Below, in pieces: positions 460 to 24,915 of a stretch of DNA of 32,879 nucleotides. Under the pieces are notes generated by a model. It searched no databases and had not been told where the DNA came from. It was given only the letters and a program-made list of their open reading frames with translations. Both the position numbers and the translations under genes were made by a program. Positions within the stretch are counted from its first letter, which is position 1. Every line of letters starts with the position of its first letter. The DNA is taken from NCBI RefSeq assembly GCF_947498175.1, contig NZ_CANMJB010000008.1, positions 70,234 to 103,112 of the forward strand, written 5' to 3'. This DNA comes from an uncultured Algimonas sp. Lineage in GTDB: Bacteria; Pseudomonadota; Alphaproteobacteria; Caulobacterales; Maricaulaceae.

Positions 460-467
460 CGTTGGCC

Positions 468-5961: not shown

Positions 5962-5989
5962 ACCAGACTACATCGTGACCTCATATCGC

Positions 5990-6015: not shown

Positions 6016-6472
6016 CTTATCATGGTCGTGCTATGAAACGGTATGGGCTGGGAATATATGAGATAGAGCGTGCCCCGTCTTCCGATCGCGGCAATTCCGA
6101 AGCCAACGCAAATAGTGCTACTTGTTCCAGCGACAAGCCGACTTCCGCAATGTCATGTTCATAGGCGGCACAAATCGAATTGAATCTCTATTGCGACAAC
6201 TTACTTATTCCTAGGCCTCAACACACGATTGCCGATGACGACTCCTTGTGATCAGTCACGCATGCTTTTGAGTTTGCCCCATCGGCATCGATGTCTAGAA
6301 AATACGCTTGAGCGTTTCTCGCTGCAGGCTGCCGCGATAAAGGTTGAATAGACGCTGCCAACGAATGGCATTATCATAAGTCCAGCCTTATAGTGTGGAA
6401 GAGCGGAAATGTAGATGATCGGCAATACTGGTATTGTATTGGTGGCAAAACTAGTGTCATTTAAAACCTTCC
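6016..6472. other. Intergenic region with coding-like remnants on the minus strand
   Basis: No intact gene is visible here. Two short leftward reading frames look protein-like. One (6295-6384) ends in a basic/aromatic stretch, WQRLFNLYRGSLQ, followed by a TAG stop. The other (about 6020-6187) contains DIAEVGLSLEQVALFALASE and ends in TGA. Both lack starts and I recognise neither family. They could be remains of a decayed gene or chance open frames. The last 50 bases hold the presumed nagB promoter. Confidence 0.3.
6429..6467 (+). promoter_or_regulatory. Candidate GntR-type operator and promoter upstream of nagB
   Basis: TGGTATTGTATTGGTG (6429-6444) contains two GGT half-sites and shares TGGTATT with the receptor promoter region. 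ACTAGTGTCA (6450-6459) matches ACTAGTCTCA upstream of murQ in nine of ten positions. TTGGTG (6439-6444) and TAAAAC (6462-6467) are spaced 17 bases apart and would be weak promoter boxes. If so, transcription would begin almost at the nagB ATG, which has no Shine-Dalgarno sequence. The GntR gene in the same locus is the obvious candidate regulator. Confidence 0.35.
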
Positions 6473-8676: not shown

Positions 8677-9413
8677 CTCAACTGGTCATTTCCAAGATCC
8701 ATGACGATGTCGTACCGATCACCTCGATAGGCCGAACGAGTCAATTCCACGGGCGTACCGTCTTTCAGGAAAGACCGCCGCTCGATCCGTAGAACCTCGC
8801 TGAATTCCCTTACGGACAGAAGCCCGGCCTCGGTGGGATTGGCAAGCGAGGCCTTAACCCTTTGCGTGCCTTGGACCGGACGATTTCCTCGACTTTCCAA
8901 GGCATGATACAGCGACTCGTCGATTTCATCGATGCTAGGCAATAGCCGCGCTGGAACGACGGCATGTTCGATGGCGACGGGTTCGTTTTCGAACTGCCGG
9001 ACACGTCCGAGACGAACGACCTTGTCTGTTTCCGATATTTGCAAGATCGTGGCTTCGTCGGCGGTCGGCATGCCGTAGGCCTTCACGATCCAGATCGCTT
9101 GGGATTTGTGACCTTTTGTCTCGGCATTGCTGGTGAAGCCCTTCAGACTTGACCCCAAATGCTCGACCTGCGGCAGGACGAAAGTCCCGGCGCCATGTTT
9201 GCGCTTGACGACCTTGTCCGCCTCCAGAACGCCAAGCGCTCGTCGTATCGTTACGCGCGATACCCCTGTGGTTTGACACAGTTCGCGTTCGGAGGGGAGG
9301 GCCTCGCCCGCCTCGATCTCGTTATTCTCAATGCAGACGCGGATCTTCTTGGCGATTTGCATGTAGTGCGGTGTGGAGACGGACTTGTCGGGGCCGATAT
9401 CAGTCAGACGCAT
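8673..9413 (-). CDS. GntR/HutC-family transcriptional regulator of amino-sugar catabolism
   Basis: The N-terminal winged helix-turn-helix is typical of GntR proteins (YMQIAKKIR, GEALPSEREL, VSRVTIRRAL, HGAGTFV). It is followed by a UTRA effector-binding domain, as in HutC/NagQ/YvoA proteins that sense phosphorylated amino sugars. I chose the ATG at 9413 (246 residues) over 9461, because AAGGG lies 7 bases upstream of 9413 while the longer form has no ribosome-binding site. It lies 126 bases downstream of murQ on the same strand, so it may be read from both the murQ promoter and one of its own. Likely targets are nagB-nagA, murQ and perhaps the TonB-dependent receptor; the effector is inferred to be GlcNAc-6-P or GlcN-6-P. 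Confidence 0.88.
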   Translation of the reverse strand: MRLTDIGPDKSVSTPHYMQIAKKIRVCIENNEIEAGEALPSERELCQTTGVSRVTIRRALGVLEADKVVKRKHGAGTFVLPQVEHLGSSLKGFTSNAETKGHKSQAIWIVKAYGMPTADEATILQISETDKVVRLGRVRQFENEPVAIEHAVVPARLLPSIDEIDESLYHALESRGNRPVQGTQRVKASLANPTEAGLLSVREFSEVLRIERRSFLKDGTPVELTRSAYRGDRYDIVMDLGNDQLS

Positions 9414-9539
9414 TCGGCAACCCTTCAAAGATGATCGTGGTAGATCCTCTTGGTGCGACATTACAAATCATGCCGCATCATTCTAGTGAGGAATATCGCA
9501 CAATCGACTTTCGACCAGAAGTAAATCCATGCGAGTGTG

Positions 9540-10433
9540 CTACGAAGATACGTAACCTTGCATATCGGATAAGGCCTGCCGCAAATTTCCACCCGCTTGT
9601 TTCAGTATTGTTTCGCTATCCGTCACGCTGGCGCCGAAACAGACTAATATAGCCGCCTTGATGTCATTGTCCGTTTCCATGAGCGCCGCACGCGCCGCAT
9701 CTGCCGAGCATGTCGCGATTTCGCTCACCATGTTCACGGCGCGCGCTTCGAGCTTGGTATTGGATATGATCATATCAACCATGAAGCCATTATAGACGCG
9801 GCCGAGGCAGGTCATAATGGTGGTCGACAACATATTCAGAACGGCTTTCTGCGCAGTCCCGGCCTTCATGCGCGTCGACCCAGCAATGATTTCGCTACCG
9901 GTTTCGACAAGGACGGGATAGTCGGCCTCCGTCAATATGGGAGTTCCAACATTGTTGGCAATGCCGATCGTCATTGCGCCACGAGCCTTCGCCTCTTTCA
10001 AAGCACCCAGCGTAAAAGGTGTGTGCCCGCTGGCCGCGACACAAAATACGACATCGTCAGGATATATATCGACATCCTGGATTGCGTTCCGGCCGTCTTC
10101 TGTCGAGTCTTCGGCGCCTTCGGCGCTTTTCATCAGCGCTTCCGTGCCGCCTGCCATGCAGAAAACAAGCCGGTCAAAGGACCAGCCAAAGGTCGGACCA
10201 AGCTCGGATCCGTCCAGAACCGCCAAGCGCCCGGACGTACCAGCACCGACATAGACCAAACGTCCTTTGTCTCCCAGTCTGAGCGCAGCCGCTTCCGCTG
10301 CTTTGGCAACGTCGTCCAGAGCCGACTGAACGGCGGCGACGGCGTCCACTTGTCCGTCATACATGGCCTGAACGGCCTCGCGGACGGGCCATATGTCCAG
10401 ATCAACATATTTACGGCTCGTCTCTTCAGTCAT
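9540..10433 (-). CDS. murQ: N-acetylmuramic acid 6-phosphate etherase
   Basis: MurQ removes the D-lactyl ether from MurNAc-6-P, giving GlcNAc-6-P, and so joins cell-wall recycling to NagA and NagB. The 297-residue protein is one SIS domain plus the family C-terminal extension. It shows VGAGTSGRLAVLDGSELGPTF (starting at residue 62), EGAEDS at 105-110 with the family's catalytic glutamate, CVAASGHTPF and GSTRMKAGTAQK, all typical. Family length is about 300 residues, so it is intact. A promoter with a palindrome over its -10 box lies just upstream. Its substrate needs a kinase (AnmK, or a MurNAc kinase) that is not in this window. Confidence 0.95.
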   Translation of the reverse strand: MTEETSRKYVDLDIWPVREAVQAMYDGQVDAVAAVQSALDDVAKAAEAAALRLGDKGRLVYVGAGTSGRLAVLDGSELGPTFGWSFDRLVFCMAGGTEALMKSAEGAEDSTEDGRNAIQDVDIYPDDVVFCVAASGHTPFTLGALKEAKARGAMTIGIANNVGTPILTEADYPVLVETGSEIIAGSTRMKAGTAQKAVLNMLSTTIMTCLGRVYNGFMVDMIISNTKLEARAVNMVSEIATCSADAARAALMETDNDIKAAILVCFGASVTDSETILKQAGGNLRQALSDMQGYVSS

Positions 10434-10459
10434 TGGGGGTCCGTGAACTATGAGAAAAT

Positions 10460-10487
10460 AGACTAGTCTCAGCTATGATCGTGTCAA
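10460..10487 (-). promoter_or_regulatory. Candidate murQ promoter with palindromic operator
   Basis: On the minus strand TTGACA (10482-10487) is followed after 16 bases by TAGTCT (10460-10465), good -35 and fair -10 boxes about 30 bases ahead of the murQ ATG. The -10 box is covered by a perfect 10-bp palindrome, AGACTAGTCT (10460-10469). Part of it recurs, nine of ten bases identical, upstream of nagB, which suggests one common repressor site. Confidence 0.5.
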
Positions 10488-10497
10488 TATGTGCCCT

Positions 10498-11153
10498 TCA
10501 CTGGTAAAGACGATACCGCTCTCTCACCACACGGAACTCCTTCAGATCCTGTTGGCAAGTCGTCCGGATTTCATGCTCTTCCAGACCCATCTTTATCTGC
10601 GCCATGAGCGCATCGTTCCTGGCCAGTTTGTTGAAGAAATTGTTCGGAAAAAACCGGTCATCTTCGGAAAGCGCCGCATGGAAATCGATCAGCCAGCGCA
10701 ACGTCAACCGGAGGCCTGCTGGATCCGCTTCGAAATCGAACGCTGACGTCCTGGATGTCGAATAAGATGATATCCACATCGTCAAGGTGCGCGGATGTCG
10801 GTTTCTTGTTCTGTCCGTAGAGAGAATATATCGGCAAACCAGTCCGCGCATCAACGCTATAATTGATATTCGTGCCCGCATCGCTTGTTCCGCGGAATCC
10901 ATGCTCGGGCGCGAAAAAACTTGCGGACCGAAATATTTGCGTCAAGTGGCGCATCGACGAGATGTTATATCTCCGGTCATGGAGGTTTAATTGGCAACCA
11001 CGGAGACGGATCGATCTTTAGGCAGAGGTCGAAAAGTTCTGAACTACCCGCCCCGACCTTCAGCGTGCCGGGTTGCAGCACGACATCGACTGCAGACTGG
11101 CAGCATATGAAGAGACACAGACCAAAATATGCCAACAAATTGAAAACATTCAT
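10498..11153 (-). pseudogene. namZ: Decayed namZ (DUF1343 exo-beta-N-acetylmuramidase)
   Basis: Three pieces of one gene lie in order but in three different minus-strand frames. The first (from 11153) has a signal-peptide-like helix (LLAYFGLCLFICC) followed by VVLQPGT, as at the N-terminus of NamZ. The second (from about 10954) has the strongest DUF1343 signature: FFAPEHGFRGTSDAG, TGLPIYSLYG and DDVDIILFDIQDV. The third ends at 10498 with a C-terminus like the family's (the last residues are RYRLY-Q). Only about 656 bp remain, where an intact NamZ of about 400 residues needs roughly 1.2 kb; the piece after DIQDV appears deleted. NamZ releases MurNAc from the non-reducing ends of glycan chains, so it would have supplied MurQ's pathway. 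Confidence 0.75.
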
Positions 11154-11394
11154 CGGTCTTGGGTTTACAGGACACATGATTATAACGTTGATGGCTCGAG
11201 CAAGACAGACCTTTGGTGCATTTCGCAAGCCTCTGGACCATAGACTTTGTAGAAGCCCATTCTGACTGGAGAATGTTGAAGTTGTACATCAGAAAGGGTG
11301 CTTAGGCTGTCTGAAAATGCCCGTAATTGTCAAGATTTGGCTTTACACGCTCCATGTCTCTGCCATTGATTTTGCTTAACGAGGAGTGCGGATC

Positions 11395-12447
11395 ATGGAA
11401 GTTGAACGAAGACATCTATTGGCGTTGTCCGCCTCGTTGACCCTCGCCGGTATGGTCGGAAACGCGGTTCCGGCGTTTTCGCAGACCACCGGTTTTTCGA
11501 AGATAAAACCGCCGCGCCTTAAGGCAGGGGATGTGGTCGGCTTGGTCTCTCCCGCCAGCAAAAGCCTGGAGCGCTTTGAATACCAGATCTCTGAAGAGGT
11601 CGTGACGGCATTGGGTCTTGTGCCTCGGCGCGGTCGATATGTCGGTGAGGACTTTGGATATTTCGCTGCGCAGGACAAAGAGCGGGCCTCGGACATCAAC
11701 ACTATGTTTGCGGATGAATCGGTTAAGGCCATCATGGCCGTGCGTGGCGGCTGGGGCTCTGCGCGGATACTGCCCTTTCTCGATTACGATCTGATACGGG
11801 CCAATCCAAAACCGCTTATCGGGTATAGCGACATCACCGCCCTGCATCTGGCACTACAGGCGAAAACGGGACTTGTCAGCTTTCACGGACCGAATGCCGC
11901 CAGTGCCTGGGGCAAAAGGACGTTGGAATATTTTCATCCTCTGCTCTTTGGCGGCGCAATGCCGACTTACACCAATCCCGTTCTCGATAGTGATCGCCTT
12001 GTCCAGCGCAAATGGCGCACGCAGACGATTACTGGAGGTACGGCAAGGGGCTATCTCGTCGGCGGGAACCTAACCGTTATGACGGCTTTGGTCGGAACAC
12101 CCTATATGCCTGATACGGATGGTGGCATTCTATTTTTGGAAGATATTGGCGAGGCTGAATATCGTGTCGACCGGATGCTGACGCAACTGGGACAAGCGGG
12201 CCTGTTAAGTGGTTTGAAGGGTATTGTGTTTGGCCAATGCACCGACTGTAAGACGTCAAATGGGAGTGGGTTCGAGCTGGCCGAAATCCTAAGTCAGCAC
12301 TTCAAACCGCTCGGTATACCGGTTTTCCACGGCGCATTTTTTGGCCATATGGCCGACCAGTTTACCGTGCCTCTCGGCATCAGGGCAGAGCTTAATGCCG
12401 ATAATGGAACACTTCGCTTATTGGAAGCCGCAGTGAGTTATTTATAG
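11395..12447 (+). CDS. ldcA: LD-carboxypeptidase (S66 family), exported
   Basis: S66 peptidases remove the terminal D-Ala from tetrapeptide muropeptides, which allows the tripeptide to be reused. The S66 triad is readable as Ser145 (GYSDITAL), Glu249 (FLEDIGEAEYRVDRML) and His318 (GHMADQFTVPLG). I prefer the ATG at 11395 over the GTG at 11386, because GAGGAG (11381-11386) is then 8 bases upstream. Unlike the cytoplasmic E. coli enzyme, this protein begins with a signal sequence containing twin arginines (ERRHLLALS, cleavage after about Ser29), so it is probably exported, perhaps by Tat. It diverges from the decayed namZ and is the last recognisable gene of the cell-wall locus before the island. 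Confidence 0.9.
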   Translation: MEVERRHLLALSASLTLAGMVGNAVPAFSQTTGFSKIKPPRLKAGDVVGLVSPASKSLERFEYQISEEVVTALGLVPRRGRYVGEDFGYFAAQDKERASDINTMFADESVKAIMAVRGGWGSARILPFLDYDLIRANPKPLIGYSDITALHLALQAKTGLVSFHGPNAASAWGKRTLEYFHPLLFGGAMPTYTNPVLDSDRLVQRKWRTQTITGGTARGYLVGGNLTVMTALVGTPYMPDTDGGILFLEDIGEAEYRVDRMLTQLGQAGLLSGLKGIVFGQCTDCKTSNGSGFELAEILSQHFKPLGIPVFHGAFFGHMADQFTVPLGIRAELNADNGTLRLLEAAVSYL

Positions 12448-13063: not shown

Positions 13064-15757
13064 TTATCCGCACTTCGCAATAACGCCTTCAAGGGTCGCG
13101 CTGGCGTTGATATCGCTCTCCGAAACCAGCAAATATTTCCATGTCTTTCCGCCGGTCTCGAACTGGTTTGCATGGAACACCCACGTCTCAGCGGCCCGCT
13201 TCTTTTCGAGGACAACAGGATCTTGCATATCGCGATCAGCCTTAACTTCGACAACTAGCTTCAGGTCTGTTGTCTCAACGACGAAGTCCGGTTCGTATGG
13301 TTTGTTCGTGTCATATTCGATCCTGAACTGCTTCGGCGCTGGCTTCAGCCACCAGAGAACGTCGCTTTCGAAATCGCTGTCGATGAGGACTGCAAAGCGA
13401 CGCTCGGGATCAGAATCGAACTTATGGAAGTGGTCTGGAGACTTGTTCCCGCCCTTGAAAACGAAGTTCTTCGTAGCAGACAAAGGCTTGGCCGCCTGAT
13501 TGAGAAATAGCTGCTTAGTCGGTGAGAATGAGAACTGTCGGCCTGTGAAAGCACGATAGGACCGCGTGACCTTCGGGATGTATTCTGCGGGGGTTTGCCG
13601 ATAGTGCTTTTTCATCTGCCTATAGATAAATTCGGCAAGCTGACGGCCGTGAGACAGTGCGATATTCTCGACGGCCTCATCGCCCTCCGCATAGCTTTGA
13701 ATGAAAGCGACAGACTGACCCGCGAGCTTATAAAGGAGTTCAGCTTGGCTATCGTAGTCAATATCGGGATAGTCCATCAGATGTTTGACAATGTAGTTTT
13801 CAACGCGCTCTTCTTTCGGCGCATCTAGTGTCCTAGCGAGTTCCGTTCGGATTTCATCCCTCAACTGTTGGATTATCAGCCGCTCTGAAATCGGCTGGAA
13901 CCGGGACTGATTGCTTGTATCTAGGTCGAAATCTTCAAACCAGAAGTTCACTTCATTGCTCGGCAAGACCACGATGTCTGGGATTTCAATGAGGTTTTCA
14001 GTAAAGACCTTTGTGACCTGAGCGACCATTCTTTCCAGGTCCGGTGCATCTACTATCCCTTCAAGCGCGCCTTGCTGTCGCTCCTGCATCATCGAAACGC
14101 GCTTGACGATTTCCTTCTGTCTGTCTGCCGTTGATAGCTCGTTTGCGCCTGAGACTACGTGGCCCATGGCGTTCAGTACGTTGAGAATATCCTTTGCAGT
14201 CTCCTGCTCTATCGGTGTGTTGTATGTAATTTCCGACTGACTTTGGGCGTCATTGACCTCCAGCCCAATCTGAGACTCAACGGTAGCCGCACCAGTCATC
14301 GCGGCGATGTAGGCGGGCACAGACTCCACGATGACCTTGGTATCGTCGCTTATATCCCCACCTTCTCCAATCGTCAGGGTCTTGAGTTTTACGACAGAAT
14401 CGTCAGCCTTGGCGCGGTCAACGATGTCTTGAAATTTATCATGGGCGATAACGGTTAGACGATCCACGTCTGGGTTCCCTGTCCTCTCGCCGTAAGGCAA
14501 TCGTAGGCCTCGCCCAAGGGTCTGTTCCGTTAGGATTTCTGAAGCTGAAGCGCGTAAGGGGACGATGGTGTAAAGGTTCGTGACATCCCAACCTTCCTTG
14601 AGCTTGTTCACATGGATGACAATATCCGTGTCATTCGTCGTTTCCAGACCGACCAATCGATCCATTGCTTCATTGCTCTCATCACCTTTTAGCTTCGAAT
14701 GCACCTCGGCCACGCGACCGATGAATGCACCGTTGAAGAAGGAGTCGCTTTCGATCTTGGCCCTAATCGCAGCGGCGTGTTCCGTGTTTTGCGCGACAAC
14801 CAGCATAAAGGGGTGGACGCGCTTGCGGCCTGTCTGTCTGGCATAGAGATCAAGCTCTGCATCGACGTGGTTGTGATAGTGGATGCCGTCTTCGAGCATG
14901 ATCTGCTCAAGCTGGTCCTGGTCGAGGCCATCCTTTCGGAAGTCGGCGCGGGTCAAAACGGCAGGCTCTTTCACATAGCTATCTGCCATCGCATTGCCGA
15001 GGCCATAGAAATAGATGACGTTCTTGAAGTCCTTGGGCTTTGCGCCGACTGTCTTCGGCGTGGCGGTCAACTCGATCCCGAGTTTAGGCGATAGTTCGAA
15101 GATCGCCTTAGTCGCGGCCTTGGCGCGGTAACGATGGGCTTCGTCCATGAACATGACGAGGTCGTCCAGACCTGCCAGATAGTCGAAGTAAGAGTCGCCA
15201 ATCGTCTCCTTGAATCCCTTGATACGGCCTGCGTCCTTGTTGATCTTATCGACGTTGAAGATGTTTATGATCGTATCGTCGAAGAGGTCACTGCCGCGCA
15301 CACCACGGCCTTGCTCCCAGGTGTCACCTGTCACGATGACCGGAGGTTTTTGCGCAAATTCCCGAATGCCGCGAAACACGTATTTGGGCGAGGACTGCAC
15401 TGAAAAGTCGTCGATCAGCTTCTCATAGATGGTCGTATTGGGCGCGAGCACGAAAAAGTTTCGCGACCGTCCCGTCTGGAAAAGATAGGTGATCATCGCA
15501 CCCATCAAGCGGGTTTTACCGACACCCGTAGCGAGAGCAAAACAGAGCGACGGAAACTGACGTTCGAAGCTCTCGACAGTAGGGTATTTCGCGGCAATCT
15601 CAGCCAGCAGATTTTTTACATCCGTGGTTTGGTCAAAGTCCATCAACCCTAATACATCCGCTAGAATATCAAGGGACTCTTCCTGCGGTGTGCGGAGCGA
15701 CAAGCGCTGGCCGATGCCGCGCTTGATCTTGGCTTCGTCAATGTGAGGCTTACGCAT
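13064..15757 (-). CDS. res: Type III restriction enzyme Res-like helicase-nuclease
   Basis: This 897-residue protein is an SF2 helicase with Walker A ATGVGKT (76-82), DEAH (205-208) and TATP (231-234), followed in the C-terminal part by a PD-(D/E)XK nuclease: Asp824 in EPDFVVE and Glu837-x-Lys839 in VVEVKA. This is the architecture of type III Res subunits, which translocate on DNA with their Mod partner and cut near the recognition site. The ATG at 15757 overlaps the end of mod by 8 bases and has GGAGGA seven bases upstream, so it is preferred over an in-frame start further upstream inside mod. It is the last gene of the five-gene leftward operon. Catalytic motifs look intact. Confidence 0.92.
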   Translation of the reverse strand: MRKPHIDEAKIKRGIGQRLSLRTPQEESLDILADVLGLMDFDQTTDVKNLLAEIAAKYPTVESFERQFPSLCFALATGVGKTRLMGAMITYLFQTGRSRNFFVLAPNTTIYEKLIDDFSVQSSPKYVFRGIREFAQKPPVIVTGDTWEQGRGVRGSDLFDDTIINIFNVDKINKDAGRIKGFKETIGDSYFDYLAGLDDLVMFMDEAHRYRAKAATKAIFELSPKLGIELTATPKTVGAKPKDFKNVIYFYGLGNAMADSYVKEPAVLTRADFRKDGLDQDQLEQIMLEDGIHYHNHVDAELDLYARQTGRKRVHPFMLVVAQNTEHAAAIRAKIESDSFFNGAFIGRVAEVHSKLKGDESNEAMDRLVGLETTNDTDIVIHVNKLKEGWDVTNLYTIVPLRASASEILTEQTLGRGLRLPYGERTGNPDVDRLTVIAHDKFQDIVDRAKADDSVVKLKTLTIGEGGDISDDTKVIVESVPAYIAAMTGAATVESQIGLEVNDAQSQSEITYNTPIEQETAKDILNVLNAMGHVVSGANELSTADRQKEIVKRVSMMQERQQGALEGIVDAPDLERMVAQVTKVFTENLIEIPDIVVLPSNEVNFWFEDFDLDTSNQSRFQPISERLIIQQLRDEIRTELARTLDAPKEERVENYIVKHLMDYPDIDYDSQAELLYKLAGQSVAFIQSYAEGDEAVENIALSHGRQLAEFIYRQMKKHYRQTPAEYIPKVTRSYRAFTGRQFSFSPTKQLFLNQAAKPLSATKNFVFKGGNKSPDHFHKFDSDPERRFAVLIDSDFESDVLWWLKPAPKQFRIEYDTNKPYEPDFVVETTDLKLVVEVKADRDMQDPVVLEKKRAAETWVFHANQFETGGKTWKYLLVSESDINASATLEGVIAKCG

Positions 15758-17483
15758 TGTCACTGTCCTCCGGGAAGAGCGGCAGGTCATCGTCTTCATC
15801 CAGCGCATCGGCCATCGGGAGATTTTCGACATTAAGCGAGTAGTCGTCCTGCCCCCACTCACATTTTGCGAGGATGGCAGTCGGGATTTTCACCAGCGTC
15901 AGATTATCGAAGCTCTCAGCGTTCGCACTATATGCCTTACAGCAGATCAGCAGACTTCGCCCCTTGCCAACTTCATCCGCGAGCTTCTTGCAGGCGTCGT
16001 GGGTCAGGTTCTGCGTCGTGACATAGATGAAGTCACTTTCGGTCGAATAGCCATGCTTCCAGTATTCGTCGGCATCATGCGACGGCGCATAGGTAAATCC
16101 CATATGCTTGCACATGGCTTCCGACAACATGGCAGGATTATAGTCTTTGGAGATCACCCAATTGCCGAACTTGTCGGTTTCGAGGAGTGAGGGCGCTAAC
16201 GAGTAATAACGGAAGCCTCCGCCACCCTTCCAATCTGCTTGTTTGGTTATGCCGGTTTGATCATCTCCCGAGATTACTTTCTTCAAGCGGGGGCGGATAT
16301 GAAGATCTGCTTGCTGACCAATCTCAACTGTGATCCACTTTCTACGAAGCTTATGTGCGGCCGCCGCAGTTGAGCCTGAGCCACCAAAGGAATCCAAAAC
16401 AATGTCCCCTGGTTTGCTGAAATGCTTCAGTATAATCTGCAACAACGCTTCAGGCTTCTTTCCACTTCGAAAGTCTGCGTCCCCCTCTAATCTACAGTTT
16501 CCAAAAGCCCCCGCGAGATCATAAAAATTTTCGATCGGCGTGGTTTTAAAAGCTTCTCTGTCTTCAAGCTGGCTTATCGGCACGCCCTGATAATACTTCC
16601 CTTTCGTCGCGCCAACTCTTTTGGGTCCCGTAAAGTATCGATGTTCAAATTTGTCGTCGCCAATACCTTTCACTTTATACAAAACTTTATAACCGTCCTG
16701 TTTGAAACGACCAGCAAGGTTATCCCTGAAAAACCGACCCGACGAATTACCGTCTAAAATACTACCGGTAGCCCAGATTTCTTTTCTGCCGTCTTCGGAG
16801 CCTTCTCCTTTAACAATCTCATATTCTTCAGGTTGGAAGATTACCGTATCCTTCCCGCCCAGTCTGATTGGCGTCCCAGACGCCTTCTCTTCGATGTAAA
16901 ACTTGAACTTTTCAAAGGAGGCTTTTTTCTTATTCAAATTTGGTGTCGCTCCATATGCCCCTCTGTAGATATGGATCATCTCAACTTGCTTATGAAAATT
17001 CATATCCTGCTTGAGGGTCTTTCCGGCGTATCTGACCTGGATATAGAAGGTAGTTTGGTAATTCTCGCGACCAAAAACTTCATCCATTAGGACCTTCAAA
17101 TAATGGCCTTCAGAGTCATCTATGTGGCAGCAAATAAAGCCGTCATCGCTCAAAAGAGTTTTCAGTATTTTTAGCCGATCCTTCATAAGCCCAAGCCATA
17201 TTGAATGCTCTAGACCATCATCATAATGCTCAAATGCGGACCCAGTGTTATATGGCGGATCAATATATATGCAGCTTATCTTCCCCGCGTACTCCTGCTC
17301 CAATGCCCTCAGCGCGAGGAGGTTGTCGCCCTTTATAAGAATGTTATCGAAATTATCGTCATCGCTATAACGAACCTTGGCGTGATACGACTTCTCCGGG
17401 TCCTCGATGAGAATGCGAGGTTCAAGCTTAGGCCGCTCATCCTTACCGACCCAAGTCAATTCAAGTTTCTGCTTTTTCGCCAT
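15750..17483 (-). CDS. mod: Type III-like Mod adenine-N6 DNA methyltransferase
   Basis: The 577-residue protein carries DPPY (75-78, in CIYIDPPYNTG) and then, after a long target-recognition region, the SAM-binding DSFGGSGST (364-372). This order is that of beta-class N6-adenine or N4-cytosine methyltransferases such as type III Mod. The C-terminal 190 residues have no motif I recognise and end in an acidic tail. The ATG at 17483 is chosen over a GTG at 17507, since the latter overlaps the preceding gene and lacks a ribosome-binding site, while GAGG precedes 17483. The recognition region (about 16500-17000) is more A+T-rich than the ends, as expected for exchangeable specificity domains. It should protect host DNA and guide Res. 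Confidence 0.92.
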   Translation of the reverse strand: MAKKQKLELTWVGKDERPKLEPRILIEDPEKSYHAKVRYSDDDNFDNILIKGDNLLALRALEQEYAGKISCIYIDPPYNTGSAFEHYDDGLEHSIWLGLMKDRLKILKTLLSDDGFICCHIDDSEGHYLKVLMDEVFGRENYQTTFYIQVRYAGKTLKQDMNFHKQVEMIHIYRGAYGATPNLNKKKASFEKFKFYIEEKASGTPIRLGGKDTVIFQPEEYEIVKGEGSEDGRKEIWATGSILDGNSSGRFFRDNLAGRFKQDGYKVLYKVKGIGDDKFEHRYFTGPKRVGATKGKYYQGVPISQLEDREAFKTTPIENFYDLAGAFGNCRLEGDADFRSGKKPEALLQIILKHFSKPGDIVLDSFGGSGSTAAAAHKLRRKWITVEIGQQADLHIRPRLKKVISGDDQTGITKQADWKGGGGFRYYSLAPSLLETDKFGNWVISKDYNPAMLSEAMCKHMGFTYAPSHDADEYWKHGYSTESDFIYVTTQNLTHDACKKLADEVGKGRSLLICCKAYSANAESFDNLTLVKIPTAILAKCEWGQDDYSLNVENLPMADALDEDDDLPLFPEDSDNA

Positions 17484-17499
17484 TCTCGCGTCGCCTCGG

Positions 17500-18699
17500 C
17501 TATTCACTTACGTCTGAAAGAATCTTGTAGAGATATATTGCGTCATCTGTGCTGATTTGTCGGTCCGTGGCTAGTGCTATCAGTGCCGTTTTCAGCGCCT
17601 GGCCGTTTTTGTAGCCAATCCGCGACAGGATCAGTTTTGACAGGTGACCTTTGCGGCGTTCCGCCATGGTCTGTCTGACAAGGCGCTTTCTCTCCCGATG
17701 GCCCCAGCCTGGAAGTCTGGTGCTTTGTGAAATCAGGCTTTCAGGTTGGACTTTGCCCGCAATTACCGCAGCTACTGTGTCTGCCATCCTCGGTACTGCG
17801 GGTGTTTGCTGAATCGATCTTTGCGTCTTCGTGTCTTTAGTATCCGCTTTCGCTTCCGCACTTGCCCGACTCGGCGGAGCCTTCTTCGTTCCTCTCGCCA
17901 GGAGTCGATCTGGAACACATGTTTTGTGTTGTGTCCGCCACGCACCGAAGGGATTCAGATTCTCTGCCCATCGGTCCTCCGACCATAGGGATGCGTTGAT
18001 CGGTTTGCTCATATGCCGCGACCGCAAAGTCCATCGAACTGTATAGAGCACGTCGATGCGCCCATGACAGGACAAGCCCTCATACGTGTCGGCTTCAAAC
18101 TGGTCATGATTGTCGCGCAAGCTTCGGACCGATGCGTCAAGGGCTTTGAGCAAGCTCGGACGCATAGCCTCCATGTCCCCTATTCGTTTTCGGATCGCGG
18201 CACGCCTCTCCGGCAAGCATTCGGGAGCTCTCCGCTCTCGGCGAAGATTGAAAATGAAGGCGTTGACGTCCCTTAGGCCAAGGTCCGCTTCATCCTCGAT
18301 CGCGTTAATGGCCTCGTCCAGTTTTCGTTCTGCTTGCTCTAAGGCCCGTAAGCTCTTCATGTCGCATCGGCCGAGGAAGTCCCAATAGAGACCCTCCATC
18401 AAGTCAGGCAGCTCTTCGGGTGGGTCTTGGTGCATGTACGTCGGCAGGGAGGCGCGCATATCGAAAATGCGGTCACCGAGCCAGGTCTGGATGGCTCGCC
18501 CATGATCATCGCAATAGCAGGCAATGATTTGCCTATGTGATGATAGCGGCGTCTCGAGTTTTGCTTCGGCTACCTGCATCCAGCCGGATTGCCCCCACAG
18601 TTTCCAGATATGAGCTTTCTTTCCGGGGTAGCTTTCCCAATAGACATCAACCGCGAGGGGAGCGGGGCCGAAATCGGCCAATGTACCCAGCCACGACAA
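17500..18699 (-). CDS. Unknown protein sharing the C-terminal domain of the adjacent SNF2 helicase
   Basis: I do not recognise a named family. Residues 36-225 match residues 759-948 of the SNF2 protein encoded just upstream. Both open with GQSGW, continue through an AK-x(4)-P stretch (AKLETP against AKMPTP) and a Y-x-D-x-G motif, pass through a charged coiled-coil region and end in a similar motif (LYTVRW here, LFTLRW there). The two segments differ in length by about one residue. After this come a lysine/threonine-rich linker (about 268-300) and a basic C-terminal part (about 310-399) that could bind nucleic acid. The start is a TTG 4 bases after the snf2 stop, with no clear ribosome-binding site, so translation probably depends on snf2. 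A structural adaptor between SNF2 and Mod/Res is my inference. Confidence 0.75.
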   Translation of the reverse strand: MSWLGTLADFGPAPLAVDVYWESYPGKKAHIWKLWGQSGWMQVAEAKLETPLSSHRQIIACYCDDHGRAIQTWLGDRIFDMRASLPTYMHQDPPEELPDLMEGLYWDFLGRCDMKSLRALEQAERKLDEAINAIEDEADLGLRDVNAFIFNLRRERRAPECLPERRAAIRKRIGDMEAMRPSLLKALDASVRSLRDNHDQFEADTYEGLSCHGRIDVLYTVRWTLRSRHMSKPINASLWSEDRWAENLNPFGAWRTQHKTCVPDRLLARGTKKAPPSRASAEAKADTKDTKTQRSIQQTPAVPRMADTVAAVIAGKVQPESLISQSTRLPGWGHRERKRLVRQTMAERRKGHLSKLILSRIGYKNGQALKTALIALATDRQISTDDAIYLYKILSDVSE

Positions 18700-18703
18700 C
18701 GGA

Positions 18704-21556
18704 TCAGGCGACGGACCAGCGCAGTGTGAAAAGGGGCTCGAGCACAGGTTCTTGGCTCAAGCTCTCCATAAAATCATCCAGCTTATCGCTGACATCTTGC
18801 CGGACCTTGGCGACCTGCTCGTGCATCGTGAGGACCAGCTTGTCCCGGTCGCCCTGCAATTTCTTTACCTCTCTGCTGACGCCGATTTTCTCCTCCATAG
18901 ACAGCATGGGGTCACGCTTCTCGCGGTTCTTTTCCTTGATCAACGCTTCCAGCTCTTTGATCTTGGCATCGATTTCAATTTGAATGTCGTCGGCATAACG
19001 GTCGAGGCGCGTTTCCTCTTCCAGTACCCAACCGTAATTTTCTTCCTTCACTCGCTTCGAAAATCCGTTGAACGCTTCGTTCTCCAGTCGATCCAATGTC
19101 AGTGGATCGAGCTCTCTCTGACAGAGCTCCATGGATGACGCCGGCACAACCATCAGCTTCTTCGCGATGTCGGGGGAAATTCTCTCGCCCGCATCATTGT
19201 AGCACGAGAATAAAAGCTCTTCTCGCCTTGCTTTGGGCGTTGGCATCTTTGCCTTCGAGACCTTCAACCAACCTGATTGGCCTTTGAGATCATCCAAAGC
19301 GCCAACCTTTCCAGTGAAAGGGTATCGGTCAGGATGGAATGTCATCTGATGGACATGGCTTAGGTAGTCTCGCTCCATCGCAGACTTGACGGTCTGCTCA
19401 CCCAGGCCGTCCGATATTCGGAAAAATTGCCAGTCATTGTCATCGGCGACAGGCCATTCAGTTGTGTGCGTCTGCCCTTCCCGTACAAAACGGGCGAGCG
19501 CATCTGAGGGGAAATGAGCTTCTGGAAATTCTGCTCTTGCGGTGATCATCAGACGCCTCGCAAAATCATCGAGCGCATCCGTTAGCTTTTTCTCTCGGCT
19601 ATGCAGCTTGGAGATTACCTCACCGTCCATCTGCTCCAAGACGCTCTTTCTCGCGGCTTCGATGTCGGCATCGATTTTGTCTTGCAGCTCGGCTTCTAAC
19701 TTCTTGAACTCTGCCTCAGCCTCTTCGTCCGTCCGGCTTTTCTGGACAATCTTCAGCACCTCCTTTTCGAAGGCGACACCGCTTTGGATAGAGCCGAGAA
19801 CCTCGTCACTTGCGCCGAACACACCATCAAAAAGATGAAATTTTTCGCTGAGAAGCTCGTAGATTCGTTCTTCTGTTTTGTTCTTCAAGTTCAGCATATT
19901 CACGACCGTCACGTCGATCTTTTGACCGTAGCGATGACACCGCCCAATGCGCTGCTCAACCCGCTGTGGATTCCAAGGCAAATCAAAGTTGATCAGCAAC
20001 GAACAGAATTGCAGGTTAATCCCTTCGGCTCCGCTCTCTGTCGATATGAAGATGGTCTTGTCGTCTTGCTTGAAGGCTTCGACTAGAGCCGCTTTCATGT
20101 CGGCGGTCCTAGAGCCAGAAATTTTGTCCGTACCTTCGTGCTTCTCTTTCCAAGCTTTGTAGATTGCCCGGCTGTCAGGATCGGAGTTGGAGCCATTAAG
20201 TATGACAACCTGACCACGATAGCCTCGCTCGCTTAGAAGCTCCTTGAGATACTTCTGTGTTCTGACACTCTCCGTAAAAATGACCGCTTTTCGCTGCCCG
20301 CCTTTTTCCACGATTTGTTCGAAGGCGCTTGGCAATTGAGAGACTAGCTTGTCCCCTTTCGCATTGCTGCCAATGGACCTAGCCAGGTCCAGCATGGCTT
20401 TGACTTCGACAACCTCAGCCGCCACTTTTTCGAGATCGACTTCATCGCTAGATTCTTCATCATCCCACGAGTCATCGATGTCTTCTTCTACGACTACGGA
20501 GAAGTCATCGAGATCATCCGTCATATCGACAGACGCGGCTTGATGGCGGTGAAGTCTAGCGAGTAGTGTTTCCAAGTACTTCGATATCGCGAATGTCGAT
20601 GAACCCAGTATCTTCCTGATTTGCAGAACTACGAGTTGGTTCGCACGCTCTCCATAAGAGACGGTGTCAGTCCTTTGCAGGAAATCAGAAAGCCTTGTGT
20701 AAAGCTCCCACTCTGCATCGGTAGGATCAAAGCTGAACGTTACAGCGTGCCGACGCTTGAAGTTGATCTGCCCCGCTTCTTGAACCTGTCGCCGCAGCGT
20801 TCTGTGACATACTGGATTAAGGCGCTCACGGAGTATCTCCATATTTGCCGGGTTCGCCGACGCGCCGACATACTGTGCCTTGAAAGCATTGATGCCGCCA
20901 AAGTGCTCTTCATCAATTATCGAGACGATGCCGTAGAGCTCCAACAACGAGTTTTGTAGTGGCGTTGCTGTGAGCAAAATCTTGAAGGAGTCCTGCAGAG
21001 CTGCTTTTAGCTCTTTCGCTCGTTTCGACACACCCTTCTTATAAACGTTCCTCAACTTATGAGCCTCGTCGAACACTACGAGGTCCCAATTTACCGAACG
21101 TAGCTCGTCCGCTTTTCCTGCGGCGAATGCATAGGAGCAGATGACGATGTTGCCTGCGTCCTCAAACGGTCTTCGCTTGCCGGAAGAAACCATCTTCTTG
21201 TAAGTCGCCGACTCTAAGATCGTGCTTCTTAGAGAGAACTTTTCAAACAGCTCTTGCTCCCACTGTTTTCGGAGCGAAGCAGGCACGATCAGAATTATAC
21301 GCCGCTTCATCTCAGCCCAGCGTTGAGAGATGACCAACCCAGCTTCGATTGTCTTACCCAGCCCAACCTCGTCCGCGAGGAGCACACCCTTTGAAAGCGG
21401 TGAGCTAAGAGCAAACAACGCCGCATTTACTTGGTGAGGATTCATCTCAACACGGGCGGATGAAAGTGAACGGGTGAATGCCCCTTCGTCCGTCCCTTCA
21501 AGTGTCAGGTGGTGAGCATTGAAATATCCGTGAAGCGGTTGATAGCCGATTGTCAT
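18704..21556 (-). CDS. SNF2-family helicase (DISARM DrmD/RapA-like)
   Basis: This 950-residue SF2 ATPase has the SNF2 motifs: ADEVGLGKT (61-69), DEAH (163-166), LLTATPLQN (194-202), STESGAEGINLQ (505-516) and RIGRCHRYGQ (536-545). A strongly acidic stretch lies between the two RecA-like lobes (about 345-377). The C-terminal 350 residues contain coiled coils, and from residue 759 a domain repeated in the next gene. SNF2 proteins of this type translocate on double-stranded DNA and occur in DISARM class 2 (DrmD), as the transcription factor RapA, and next to restriction genes. The start ATG directly abuts the fic stop (TGAATG). Motifs look intact, so it should be an active ATPase. Confidence 0.9.
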   Translation of the reverse strand: MTIGYQPLHGYFNAHHLTLEGTDEGAFTRSLSSARVEMNPHQVNAALFALSSPLSKGVLLADEVGLGKTIEAGLVISQRWAEMKRRIILIVPASLRKQWEQELFEKFSLRSTILESATYKKMVSSGKRRPFEDAGNIVICSYAFAAGKADELRSVNWDLVVFDEAHKLRNVYKKGVSKRAKELKAALQDSFKILLTATPLQNSLLELYGIVSIIDEEHFGGINAFKAQYVGASANPANMEILRERLNPVCHRTLRRQVQEAGQINFKRRHAVTFSFDPTDAEWELYTRLSDFLQRTDTVSYGERANQLVVLQIRKILGSSTFAISKYLETLLARLHRHQAASVDMTDDLDDFSVVVEEDIDDSWDDEESSDEVDLEKVAAEVVEVKAMLDLARSIGSNAKGDKLVSQLPSAFEQIVEKGGQRKAVIFTESVRTQKYLKELLSERGYRGQVVILNGSNSDPDSRAIYKAWKEKHEGTDKISGSRTADMKAALVEAFKQDDKTIFISTESGAEGINLQFCSLLINFDLPWNPQRVEQRIGRCHRYGQKIDVTVVNMLNLKNKTEERIYELLSEKFHLFDGVFGASDEVLGSIQSGVAFEKEVLKIVQKSRTDEEAEAEFKKLEAELQDKIDADIEAARKSVLEQMDGEVISKLHSREKKLTDALDDFARRLMITARAEFPEAHFPSDALARFVREGQTHTTEWPVADDNDWQFFRISDGLGEQTVKSAMERDYLSHVHQMTFHPDRYPFTGKVGALDDLKGQSGWLKVSKAKMPTPKARREELLFSCYNDAGERISPDIAKKLMVVPASSMELCQRELDPLTLDRLENEAFNGFSKRVKEENYGWVLEEETRLDRYADDIQIEIDAKIKELEALIKEKNREKRDPMLSMEEKIGVSREVKKLQGDRDKLVLTMHEQVAKVRQDVSDKLDDFMESLSQEPVLEPLFTLRWSVA

Positions 21557-22627
21557 TCAGGTCTTAGCCCTCTCCAACTCGTACCACGTCGCGCGAGCCT
21601 TCCCGTGTTGCGATATATGACCCGATGCGACCAACTCTCGCATTCTGACCTTCACAGTGTTTCGATTCGCATTTGTACGTTTAACAACTTGAGAGAGTGT
21701 CAGTCGATTTGCATCATGAAACAACTCTAAAATCTGTTGCGACAAAGGATGAAGTCTTTGCTCAGATTTTTTCCGTATACCTTCATCGGCAACCCGCGCC
21801 GCCAGAATGCTCGCCTGCTTCTTCAAAGCCCGCAGGAAGAATCCAATCCACGGCTCCCAATCTGGCTCATCCGCGAGCGTCTTCTGCGTTCGCCGGAGCG
21901 CGTTGTAGTACTGCCCCTTGTTCTCCTCCACGACGCTTTCAAGCGACGCATAGGGCACGTAGGCGTAGCCAGCCCTCAACAGCATGAGTGTGGTGAGCAC
22001 GCGGGACAAGCGACCGTTACCGTCTTGGAAGGGATGGATCGCCAAGAACTGCACGATGAAAACGGCAATGATGAGGAGCGGGTGTAGCGCTTCTTCGCGG
22101 ATGGCTTTTTGCGTCCAGGCGACCAGCGCTTCCATCTCGCGCGGGGTCTCGAATGGCGTGGCCGTTTCGAAGACGACGCCTAGCTCCTCGCCGTCCGGTT
22201 CAAAAGCGACGACGTGATTGTCGAGCGTCTTGTAGCCGCCCCTATGCCGCTCGTCCTTCGTGCTGTGGCGCAAGAGCGTCTTGTGGAGCTGCCGGATGTG
22301 GTTCTCGGTGACGGCCATGTCTTCCCACGCTTGGAAGACCAAATCCATCGCCTCGGCGTAGCCTGCCACTTCCTGCTCATCGCGGGTTTGGAAGCTCTGC
22401 GTTTTGAGGTTGGTGAGTAGTTTCTCGACCTGCGCGTCTGTGAGCTTCGCGCCCTCGATCCGGGTGGATGATCCGATGCTCTCAATCGTCGCGACTTTGC
22501 GCAAGCTTTGCAGGCGATCCGGCGCGAGCGTTTTGAGCGCATCCCAACGCCCTTTGAACTCGTCCACCTCGGCGACGAGTTTGACGAGGTCTTGGCCGAA
22601 ACGGATATCTAATCGGGTGTAGTCCAT
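21557..22627 (-). CDS. fic: Fic-domain AMP-transferase with N-terminal inhibitory motif and C-terminal winged helix
   Basis: The 356-residue protein carries the full Fic active site HPFQDGNGR (198-206) and, near the N-terminus, SSTRIEG (53-59), the (S/T)xxxE(G/N) inhibitory helix of class II Fic proteins that blocks productive ATP binding until relieved. Fic enzymes usually transfer AMP to a hydroxyl of a target protein. The last 70 residues form a winged helix-turn-helix (LTLSQVVKRTNANRNTVKVRMREL), so it may bind DNA. It is the first gene of the operon, and its promoter is covered by repeats. A predicted -10 box ends only 6 bases before the ATG and no ribosome-binding site is present, so the mRNA is probably leaderless. 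Autoregulation of the defence operon is a reasonable inference. Confidence 0.9.
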   Translation of the reverse strand: MDYTRLDIRFGQDLVKLVAEVDEFKGRWDALKTLAPDRLQSLRKVATIESIGSSTRIEGAKLTDAQVEKLLTNLKTQSFQTRDEQEVAGYAEAMDLVFQAWEDMAVTENHIRQLHKTLLRHSTKDERHRGGYKTLDNHVVAFEPDGEELGVVFETATPFETPREMEALVAWTQKAIREEALHPLLIIAVFIVQFLAIHPFQDGNGRLSRVLTTLMLLRAGYAYVPYASLESVVEENKGQYYNALRRTQKTLADEPDWEPWIGFFLRALKKQASILAARVADEGIRKKSEQRLHPLSQQILELFHDANRLTLSQVVKRTNANRNTVKVRMRELVASGHISQHGKARATWYELERAKT

Positions 22628-22660
22628 ACCCGTTTATACCCAATTACACCCGATTGTCAT
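22611..22660 (-). promoter_or_regulatory. fic promoter covered by phased 10-bp repeats
   Basis: Three tandem 10-bp units lie at 22626-22655 (ATACCCGTTT, ATACCCAATT, ACACCCGATT). A fourth, inverted copy lies at 22611-22620, giving the perfect 11-bp inverted pair AATCGGGTGTA/TACACCCGATT. On the minus strand ATGACA (22655-22660) and TATAAA (22633-22638) are spaced 16 bases and form a plausible promoter, which would start transcription at about the fic ATG (22627). The repeats therefore sit on the promoter and the start codon. Confidence 0.6.
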
Positions 22661-22688
22661 CCGCCGTGATTCTCAGCCGAGAGCTGAC

Positions 22689-22724
22689 CCTTAAGAAAGG
22701 ATATGGCCGAATCTTTTCTTAAGG
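22689..22724. repeat. 10-bp inverted repeat
   Basis: CCTTAAGAAA (22689-22698) and TTTCTTAAGG (22715-22724) are perfect inverted repeats with a 16-base spacer, about 60-95 bases upstream of fic. Neither orientation has a convincing T-tract, so a protein-binding site is as likely as a terminator. Confidence 0.55.
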
Positions 22725-22920
22725 CTGCCACTAAGAAAACTTAGCGACCTAACGGATAAGGCCAATGACGCACGAAACAGCCGGAACGTGCGCAATGCGG
22801 CAGCGATAGCGCACGAACTGAGGCGAGTTTGCACCATTGGTTCTCGGCGATATCGGAGAGTTTTGACCAACCGCTGGGAAGAGGATCGAAGAGGCTGCAA
22901 AAGGGTTGAGCCTTGGTGGA

Positions 22921-23156: not shown

Positions 23157-23369
23157 ATGACTGACTCCCCACAGACCGCCGCGACCGCTGACGACATTCG
23201 GCAAGCCATGACGACGCTTGCAGGCATCATCCGCAAGTTTGGCGATGCGCCTTGGCCGATCATGGAGCGTTTGCAGCGCGAGCTGAAAGCTATCGAGGAC
23301 CGCGAAAAGCTGCTCGATGACTTGCTGAAAGAGGGCGCTAGCGGTCCAAACTCGGCAAGCTTTCAATGA
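23157..23369 (+). CDS. Small hypothetical protein next to the integrase
   Basis: This 70-residue protein starts at the ATG 23157, preceded by TAGG. An in-frame TTG at 23151 would add two residues. It is predicted to be helical and charged (IRKFGDAPWPIMERLQREL, then KAIEDREKLLDDLLKEG), with no motif I can name. Its 3' end overlaps the 3' end of the convergent integrase gene by 32 bases. Similar short helical genes are often found beside tRNA-integrating recombinases, which would suit an accessory of integration, but that is only an impression. The palindromic repeat array lies in its upstream region. Confidence 0.5.
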   Translation: MTDSPQTAATADDIRQAMTTLAGIIRKFGDAPWPIMERLQRELKAIEDREKLLDDLLKEGASGPNSASFQ

Positions 23370-24711
23370 AGGCTCGGCTGACCGGATGAGCAATCTTTGA
23401 AAGCTCTGCGTGGCGGTAGGCGAGCGACCCGCCATCGCCATATTGGGGGCGATTGTTCTTGTGGCCCATGAGTGTGCAGCGCAATCCATAGTCCAATCCA
23501 GCCTCCAACATTCGGCTCTCAAAGGCGTGGCGGAAGCTGTAGATGCAATGCTTGTCGGTCGGCATGAGGCCGCGATTATGGAAGCTCTTTAGCAGCGCAG
23601 CGGACAGCGAATTGCCGCGATCCCGATAGCGCGGAAAGCCGTTTGGGGCTCGCTTCATGGCCTCCAGCGACACGCCGATGAGCGGAATATCACGACGCGA
23701 CGACACGGATTTAAGCTCTCGTTTCGACGTGGGCCGGATGCGAATATGCGGCACGTCGGCGTCCAGGCAGATGTTCTCCGGGCGTAGATTGGCGATCTCG
23801 CTCGGCCTGCACCCGGTCTCGATGAGCGCGTAGGCGATGAGCTGCACCTCCTCATTTATGCCTTCCAGTGCGTTCGGCTGGATGACGTTTGAGCGTACCC
23901 AATCGTCTGGAAAAGGCGGTGTCGGCTCGGCGGGTGTGTCCTTGAAGCGGAGCTTGCGGAACGGGTTTTCGCGGTCCTCGTCGCCTTGATAGGTCCAGTA
24001 TTCACGGAACAACTGGCGCATATTTCCAAGCTCTCGGTTGGCGCTATTGGGGCGATAGGTTCGGCATTCGCGATTGTCCGGGCGCAATCTTTCGCCCCAC
24101 CAGTCGTAGAACTGCCGCCCGTGATCTCGCGTCAAGGCGTCCATCGTGACGTTGCCGCAAAGCGCAATGAAGTGCTCCACCGCACGAGCCTTTGTCGCCT
24201 TCCAGCGCACGATTTGCTCAGGCGATTTCGTGCTCGTCTCGCCAATGCTGAGCTTGTCGCAATAGAGCTTAAACGCATCGCGCACCGTGTCCTTGGGAGG
24301 CTCTATCGTGCCCAAGGTCGCTTCTGCTTCGCGGTCTGTTACGTCAGGTTTGGCAAGTGCTTTGACACGTTCAACGATAGTCTCGACAGGCTCGAACGCA
24401 GCGATCTTCGCCATTGGCTTGAACTCGAAACCCATGGCCCGCGCACGGCGTCTGGCGCTGCGATAGCGACACATTTCGGGTGTCTCTTCGACGGTCGTGC
24501 CCATGTGCTTGGCGAGTGAGCTTTCCCAGAAATGCTCGTCGGCATCCATAAGGGCGTCCCGCCTCTCGCGGGCAATGGTGAGCGAGTCTGTGAGGAGCGC
24601 GACCTTCACGCGGCGGCGCGTGTCGATGCATCTGTATTGGGTTGGAACGCGGCGCACATAGTACCAACGGTGGCCGCGTTGTTCGAGGTAGTGGTTACGA
24701 CGTATGGACAT
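23338..24711 (-). CDS. int: Tyrosine recombinase/integrase (DUF6538-type N-terminus)
   Basis: This 457-residue site-specific recombinase would catalyse integration and excision of the island at tRNA-Arg. The N-terminus (YLEQRGHRWYYVRRVP) resembles the DUF6538 arm-binding domain. The catalytic domain shows Arg302 (TGCRPSEI), a YSFRH box with Arg394, the GH of MGHKNN (His417) and a probable nucleophile Tyr424 (RPQYG). The usual HxxR histidine is replaced by Tyr391, a variation I associate with this integrase group. The gene lies 127 bases from the tRNA-Arg 3' end, reading away from it. Direct repeats upstream of its start may be arm-type sites. Confidence 0.92.
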   Translation of the reverse strand: MSIRRNHYLEQRGHRWYYVRRVPTQYRCIDTRRRVKVALLTDSLTIARERRDALMDADEHFWESSLAKHMGTTVEETPEMCRYRSARRRARAMGFEFKPMAKIAAFEPVETIVERVKALAKPDVTDREAEATLGTIEPPKDTVRDAFKLYCDKLSIGETSTKSPEQIVRWKATKARAVEHFIALCGNVTMDALTRDHGRQFYDWWGERLRPDNRECRTYRPNSANRELGNMRQLFREYWTYQGDEDRENPFRKLRFKDTPAEPTPPFPDDWVRSNVIQPNALEGINEEVQLIAYALIETGCRPSEIANLRPENICLDADVPHIRIRPTSKRELKSVSSRRDIPLIGVSLEAMKRAPNGFPRYRDRGNSLSAALLKSFHNRGLMPTDKHCIYSFRHAFESRMLEAGLDYGLRCTLMGHKNNRPQYGDGGSLAYRHAELSKIAHPVSRAFIESLPSLDR

Positions 24712-24835: not shown

Positions 24836-24852
24836 TTATGGCGCACCGGGGA
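24836..24852. repeat. Island attachment site at tRNA-Arg (attR)
   Basis: This is the 17-bp copy TTATGGCGCACCGGGGA overlapping the 3' end of the tRNA-Arg gene (24839-24852 lie within it). It is identical to 12783-12799. Because the copy supplies the authentic 3' end including CCA, the tRNA remains intact after integration. Confidence 0.85.
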
Positions 24853-24915
24853 GGATTCGAACCCCCGACCCCCAGATTCGTAGTCTGGTGCTCTATCCAG
24901 CTGAGCTACCGGTGC
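24839..24915 (-). tRNA. tRNA-Arg (anticodon ACG)
   Basis: The 77-base gene on the minus strand folds as a standard cloverleaf. The acceptor GCACCGG pairs with CCGGTGC, followed by G and an encoded CCA. The D-arm has TAGCTCAG, and the anticodon stem CCAGA/TCTGG encloses the loop CTACGAA with anticodon ACG (24879-24881). The T-arm loop is TTCGAAT. ACG is read as inosine-CG and decodes CGU/CGC/CGA arginine codons. Its 3' end serves as the island's integration site. Confidence 0.95.

Follow-up and report, generated by a model that had tools for sequence, protein, structure and literature searches.

The window analyzed here, a stretch of 32,879 nucleotides from an uncultured Algimonas sp. (contig NZ_CANMJB010000008.1), contains a minus-strand operon in the order Fic, SNF2, a 399-amino acid (aa) protein designated P0001, Mod and Res. 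P0001 is a stand-alone copy of the C-terminal domain (CTD) of the SNF2 ATPase encoded next to it, as a sequence-only reading of the window had proposed, and BLASTP, profile-profile comparison, predicted folds and a phylogenetic tree agree on this point. The open reading frames (ORFs) of both proteins were found where that reading had placed them. The features of these two genes are as follows.

18704..21556 (-): SNF2/RapA-like ATPase, 950 aa, with the motifs GLGKT, DEAH, TATP and RVEQRIGR
18710..19351 (-): SNF2 CTD, residues 736-949, of the type from which the stand-alone domain derives (BLASTP, model, tree)
18986..19039 (-): residues 840-857 of SNF2, the conserved CTD hairpin signature, most of which the stand-alone copies have lost (column comparison)
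17500..18699 (-): stand-alone CTD protein P0001, 399 aa, starting at a TTG codon 4 bp after the stop of SNF2 (ORF)
18016..18666 (-): conserved domain of P0001, residues 12-228, made up of a beta sheet and a long helical hairpin (BLASTP, profile-profile, model)
18073..18414 (-): helical hairpin of P0001, residues 96-209 (model)
18361..18423 (-): P0001 motif PP...YWDFLG..D, residues 93-113, common to most copies and largely missing in the Sphingopyxis copy
17704..18009 (-): P0001 linker, residues 231-332, of low confidence and probably disordered (predicted local distance difference test by block, 31-60)
17506..17700 (-): basic helical tail of P0001, residues 334-398, found only in the window and in the same-genus locus L194

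P0001 matched no family in Pfam, PADLOC or NCBIfam, and no PHROG. BLASTP aligned its residues 24-225 with residues 747-949 of SNF2 (E value 2e-15, 25% identity, 48% positives, 204 columns, 1% gaps), and the similarity noticed earlier between residues 36-225 and 759-948 is real and lies within this alignment. The local alignment of the P0001 domain with the SNF2 CTD scored 176, compared with a mean of 32 (standard deviation, sd, 4.9) for 1000 shuffled sequences, while a control alignment with the remainder of SNF2 scored 48, not far above its shuffles (36, sd 4.8). Because the beta half (88 versus a shuffle mean of 23, sd 4.1) and the hairpin half (106 versus 31, sd 5.5) were each significant on their own, the similarity is more than coiled-coil composition, and a chance resemblance of coiled coils was rejected. 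A profile alignment had been named beforehand as a test, and when four stand-alone copies were compared with 99 SNF2 CTDs the two profiles matched with a Prob of 99.5 and an E value of 2.6e-23 over 206 columns. Homology and a common fold of the P0001 domain and the SNF2 CTD are near certain.

Predicted fold and altered surface of the stand-alone domain

The predicted folds, also named beforehand as a test, did not differ, and the same elements occurred in the same order in both models. AlphaFold2 models were built from the window and the loci of the two SNF2 scans described below only, and the alignment for the P0001 model also held SNF2 CTD rows, so that the agreement in fold is not fully independent of the homology. 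The predicted strands (E) and helices (H) of P0001 were E15-20, E38-49, E54-64, H72-79, H96-157, H163-209 and E214-226, and those of the SNF2 CTD were E736-740, E761-772, E777-787, H795-801, H818-880, H887-933 and E938-949. The two helices of the hairpin are 62 and 47 residues long in P0001 and 63 and 47 in SNF2. Beyond the linker the P0001 model has a small helical tail of moderate confidence.

When the models were compared with the PDB using Foldseek, the five best matches of SNF2 were RapA chains (E values from 4e-26 to 6e-18, approximately 1050 columns including gaps, template modeling (TM) scores of 0.36-0.54). RapA was also the top match of the P0001 model, although a weak one (E value 0.017, prob 0.72, TM score 0.17 by query length), and P0001 had no PDB match at an E value of 0.001 or below; nor was there any among viral structures at the same threshold. 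A sequence search of the PDB with the CTD found no significant relative, and homology of the CTD to RapA on sequence alone was rejected, the profile-profile match to RapA being not significant. A 2026 paper (PMC12839542) suggests that the C-terminal domain of the RapA/BrxHII type is unique to helicases, and the survey reported there found no true homologue of it outside the RapA-like helicases. Both the P0001 domain and the SNF2 CTD fit the description given there, with four strands of at least three residues called and a fifth not clear. Judged from the models, the domain fits a RapA/BrxHII-type C-terminal alpha+beta/helical-hairpin domain; that type is part of a Swi2/Snf2 helicase, whereas P0001 is a separate protein with no helicase part.

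We then compared the CTD columns that hold a given residue in at least 70% of sequences, 20 in all, between five independent copies and 103 CTDs. Eleven of these columns, including Gly762, Gly790, Trp947 and several leucines, were kept in at least three of the five copies. The other nine were not, in some cases by conservative change only, and six of the nine sit on the first helix of the hairpin. Glu847 (86 of 103 CTDs) and Trp or Tyr at position 854 (98 of 103) were found in none of the five copies. The same was true of Asp857, which is Asp in 100 of the CTDs and Glu in the remaining three; the Sphingopyxis copy also has Glu here. Asn840 (83 of 103) and Lys or Arg at position 850 (94 of 103) were each present in one copy, the latter in that of the window, and Phe844 was replaced by Leu or Ile. 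At the base of the same helix the copies have a new motif, consisting of prolines followed by Y-W-D-F-x-G-x2-D, in which the first Asp is present in all five copies and the Tyr, Trp, Phe, Gly and last Asp in four. As far as these sequence comparisons go, the lost signature and the new motif fit a domain that may have dropped the contact made by the CTD within SNF2 and gained a new one.

The tails of the five independent copies had no significant similarity to one another. The basic tail pointed out in the sequence-only reading holds for the window (isoelectric point 10.3) and the Sphingopyxis copy (10.6), two of the five, but not for the other three (5.8, 4.6 and 4.7), and a basic tail as a DNA-binding trait was rejected since it is not conserved. 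No known domain was found above the curated cut-off in the copies and tails scanned against Pfam, PADLOC, NCBIfam and PHROG.

Number, setting and origin of the copies

Related loci were collected by scanning with an SNF2 alignment and taking the best 80 of 544 genome relatives and the best 80 of 353 viral contigs; the counts that follow therefore describe a sample. Together with seven plasmid loci and the window, these gave 114 loci with an SNF2 ORF passing the size and score limits. A Mod gene lay downstream in 83 of the 114, accompanied in 74 of the 83 by a Res-like gene. A search of the ORFs in the collected loci found stand-alone copies in the window, on a Sphingopyxis plasmid (L006, 527 aa), in a proteobacterial metagenome-assembled genome (L013, 297 aa) and on a contig from a viral collection (L115, 272 aa); two other short ORFs with a match to the domain lie partly over SNF2 genes and appear to be fragments of them. 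Whole-genome searches added one copy from the same genus (L194) and one from the same family (L195), giving six copies in all, five of them independent. A stand-alone copy was carried by 3 of the 398 genomes searched in the order, by 3 of 137 in the family and by 1 of 385 in the class, each count including the window's own genome. Weak matches to the hairpin only (five in the order search and two in the class search) were left out of these counts because one weak genome match, G596, proved to be a sigma factor and was rejected as a copy. Three plasmid records gave a match, one of which holds a copy and two of which match through SNF2. Phage records that were searched gave no match, and neither did the viral contigs when P0001 alone was the query; the copy-bearing L115 was picked up when that collection was scanned with SNF2.

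Each of the six copies is separated by 4-19 bp from the SNF2 gene in front of it and has the same orientation, and mod and res follow in five of the six. In L115, SNF2 and the stand-alone domain (1329-5013) are on a contig with phage-like ORFs, and neither mod nor res was found in the 14.2 kb examined of this 17.3 kb contig.

A careful 36-row tree placed all six copies in a single clade (support 100/99), which grouped at 97/96 with the SNF2 CTDs of the window, L194, L006 and L195. Since support for a separate clade of those four CTDs was weak (80/57), the copies may branch next to them or from within the group. Where the host of a surrounding CTD is named, it is Sphingopyxis, Roseomonas, Paracoccus or Ketogulonicigenium, each an alphaproteobacterium, and a quick tree of 110 rows agreed with the careful one. 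The clade has a long stem (2.4 changes per column), and the L006 and L195 copies are on very long branches; for these reasons the attachment point of the copies is less sure than their single origin. A single duplication within one lineage of SNF2-Mod-Res (Type III restriction) systems, the named members of which are alphaproteobacteria, is the simplest and a likely origin. A recent copy of the window's own SNF2 was rejected because the clade of copies predates the split between the window and L194. An ancient paralogue outside all related CTDs was disfavored by approximately unbiased (AU) tests against trees in which 9, 13 or 17 related CTDs formed a group that excluded the copies (p = 0.041, 0.012 and 0.004), the result being marginal for the smallest group; these groups were chosen after the tree was seen, and the long branches are a caveat.

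The window and L194 share 92.7% DNA identity over positions 17180-22792. Between the two, the ratio of nonsynonymous to synonymous substitution rates (dN/dS) was 0.02 for the SNF2 motor, 0.10 for the CTD and 0.12 for the stand-alone domain, which is thus under constraint; the value for the P0001 tail was 0.23, with few changes behind the figure. The stand-alone gene is a separate, fast-diverging gene that has been kept directly behind SNF2.

The slot between SNF2 and mod and the possible function of P0001

The place occupied by the stand-alone gene was compared across the 83 SNF2-Mod loci. No gene was called between SNF2 and mod in 43 of them (a count that includes at least one missed ORF, since L010 has an AIPR gene), one gene in 28, two in nine and three in three. 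The 58 slot proteins, three of which were added by hand, fell into 29 groups. Twelve of 20 slot proteins searched against Pfam (E value 1e-3) had a family and eight did not; the families were AAA/SMC-like, AAA_21, AIPR, Schlafen AlbA_2, DUF4276, PLD, Bro-N, SIR2_2, Abi_2, GmrSD/HNH, Abi_C and ThsA macro. PADLOC assigned 8 of 10 to a family, including Dsr2 (1e-143), AbiD, AbiU, AbiJ and ThsA. Exchangeable antiviral genes were seen in the slot in, for example, L009, L011, L015, L017, L021, L023, L036, L052, L059, L076, L093 and L096; one kind pairs an AAA gene with DUF4276. In the SNF2 subclade to which the window belongs, the stand-alone domain fills the slot in the window, L194, L195, L006, L013 and L115; a PLD protein is found there in L009 and an AbiJ-like protein in L093, and the slot is empty in L196. 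From these contents across lineages it follows that the stand-alone gene sits where antiviral genes are exchanged elsewhere. A slot protein of approximately 770 aa recurs in L023, L028, L081 and L102 as one BLASTP group; in its L023 member, which PADLOC finds LmuB-like, the ends resemble those of an SMC/RecF ATPase. Another relative of the same family as the window (L224) has SNF2, a 286-aa ORF without a known family (10447-11307), Mod and Res, and no stand-alone copy.

The SNF2-Mod-Res chassis was already known. Murray et al. 2021 (PMC8259958) describe it among Type III systems with an extra ATPase whose role was not known, and report that no peptides of the SNF2 homologue were detected in partially purified Eco86II enzyme. 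The locus of E. coli NCTC86, the identification of which as Eco86II itself rests on strain and gene order, has the same SNF2-Mod-Res arrangement as the window, with the ATPase 5' of mod, and its SNF2 is 38% identical to that of the window along its full length (986 columns), CTD included. Its slot is empty, whereas that of the window holds the stand-alone gene; its Mod can be aligned only in part to the window Mod, and its Res has no BLASTP match to the window Res at 1e-3. A second form of the system, in which a Mod of approximately 1000-1160 aa is accompanied by a protein of approximately 1050-1150 aa that replaces Res and does not match the window Res, was seen in L026, L032, L033, L035, L039 and others, and in L223, and the NCTC86 locus belongs to it as well. 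Of 5426 E. coli genomes, 249 matched a Shewanella SNF2 gene of the family by blastn, with a query cover of at least 80% in 22 of them.

Two other defense systems bear comparison. Bacteriophage exclusion (BREX) and BREX-related loci, according to PMC12839542, carry auxiliary or backup effectors, nuclease or Abi-type genes, inside a conserved defense operon, as the SNF2-mod slot does; their chassis differs, the slot here being between an SNF2 ATPase and a Type III mod. DrmD of DISARM (defense island system associated with restriction-modification) gave the best-scoring profiles for the SNF2 motor. With DrmD profile NF038318, SNF2 reached 646 bits, below the NCBIfam cut-off of 950, and the best DrmD stretch ends at SNF2 residue 664, before the CTD; moreover, the partners here are Mod and Res. 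Neither a stand-alone copy of the domain nor an exchangeable slot was mentioned in the literature searched, which most subscription papers lay outside.

The function that we consider most likely, at a little under an even chance, is that P0001 and its relatives are trans-acting accessory subunits of the SNF2/Mod/Res machinery, each with its own contact face and a variable tail. Such a copy would keep the fold of the CTD and drop most of its conserved hairpin surface. The face conserved among the copies themselves, at the hairpin base (PP...YWDFLG..D), would bind a component of the machinery, and the exchangeable tail on its flexible linker would do copy-specific work, as an effector, a sensor or a nucleic-acid contact. 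It is possible, though less likely than not, that a RapA-type CTD escaped from its helicase and gave rise to a new class of adaptors, in which one duplicated, re-surfaced domain with unrelated tails would sit in the exchangeable effector slot of SNF2-Type III restriction systems and couple new activities to the chassis.

Several observations weigh against an accessory subunit of this kind. Only five independent copies are known, and most of the shared motif is missing from the one in Sphingopyxis. The tails of two copies are short (46 and 73 aa) and leave little room for an effector. The L194 gene is frameshifted in the linker, with the tail left as a separate open frame, and this copy may be without an attached tail. 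The domain is absent from all other slot proteins in the loci searched, so slot proteins need not have it to work with the chassis. In addition, the Eco86II preparation (PMC8259958) suggests that the association of SNF2 itself with Mod-Res may not be stable.

The sequence-only reading had suggested instead that the homologous hairpins of the SNF2 CTD and the stand-alone domain pair as a pseudo-dimer, docking the motor to Mod/Res or DNA. Homologous long hairpins with the same predicted elements are indeed encoded side by side in six of six cases. However, the conserved face of the CTD hairpin is mostly absent in the copies, and given the lost signature a copy that pairs through the same interface appears disfavored. 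SNF2 systems with no copy are also common; with no gene called in 43 of the 83 slots, a docking partner of this kind is not a general requirement of the chassis. Nor is the basic tail conserved, and SNF2 went undetected in the Eco86II preparation (PMC8259958). We regard such pairing as unlikely.

Somewhat less probable still is a regulator that would inhibit the SNF2 ATPase and, once a phage interferes with the complex, release a slot-type response. The Abi-type genes in the slot elsewhere and the derivation of the protein from part of the ATPase speak for it, but no recognizable toxin domain was found in the copies scanned. If the protein were a decoy, sequestering anti-restriction proteins of phages by its resemblance to the SNF2 CTD, this would account for the fast divergence and for a domain copy inside a defense operon; a mimic, however, should keep the conserved face of the CTD, including the Asp857 that no copy has, and this explanation, already disfavored on that ground, is very improbable. 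Equally remote is a functionless relic of duplication, to which the frameshift in L194 and the long branches might point, since the dN/dS of 0.12 over the domain, an open frame intact in five of six loci and a shared motif of its own all speak against it.

A domain for which PMC12839542 found no true homologue outside RapA-like helicases here stands alone, with its origin still readable. A second copy of the CTD in a slot otherwise used by Abi, SIR2 and nuclease genes offers a direct handle on what the CTD binds, and on how the SNF2 ATPase may link restriction to backup effectors.

Other genes of the window

The remaining genes of the operon are listed below.

21557..22627 (-): Fic-domain protein (Pfam, PADLOC and NCBIfam scans), abutting SNF2 directly, an optional neighbor
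15750..17507 (-): Mod, Type III DNA methyltransferase, with a possible ATG start at 17483
13064..15862 (-): Res, Type III restriction helicase-nuclease

Mod matched N6_N4_Mtase (8e-36), with MTase_III as its best PADLOC family (9e-175), and contains the DPPY and FGGSG motifs, as befits a Type III beta-class DNA methyltransferase with motifs I and IV. The best PADLOC family of Res was REase_III (5e-216); it has GVGKT and DEAH motifs and PDF...EVK near its end, in keeping with a Type III superfamily 2 (SF2) helicase with a PD-(D/E)XK-like nuclease end. A Fic-domain gene also abuts SNF2 upstream in L194 (4281-5351), and that of L020 (8882-9931) is close upstream of SNF2.

An ORF judged by reading to be integrase-like (23338-24711) lies beside a tRNA-Arg (acg) gene (24839-24915), and the G+C content falls from this side towards the operon. 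Together, these sequence features suggest a putative tRNA-integrated defense island; a second copy of the tRNA end was absent from the window (at up to three mismatches) and from the genome (at up to one mismatch). At the other end of the window, positions 1-12447 hold genes that, by reading, resemble those of muropeptide and amino-sugar recycling, namely an amidase, a TonB receptor, a SIS protein, NagA-like, GntR and MurQ-like proteins and an LD-carboxypeptidase.

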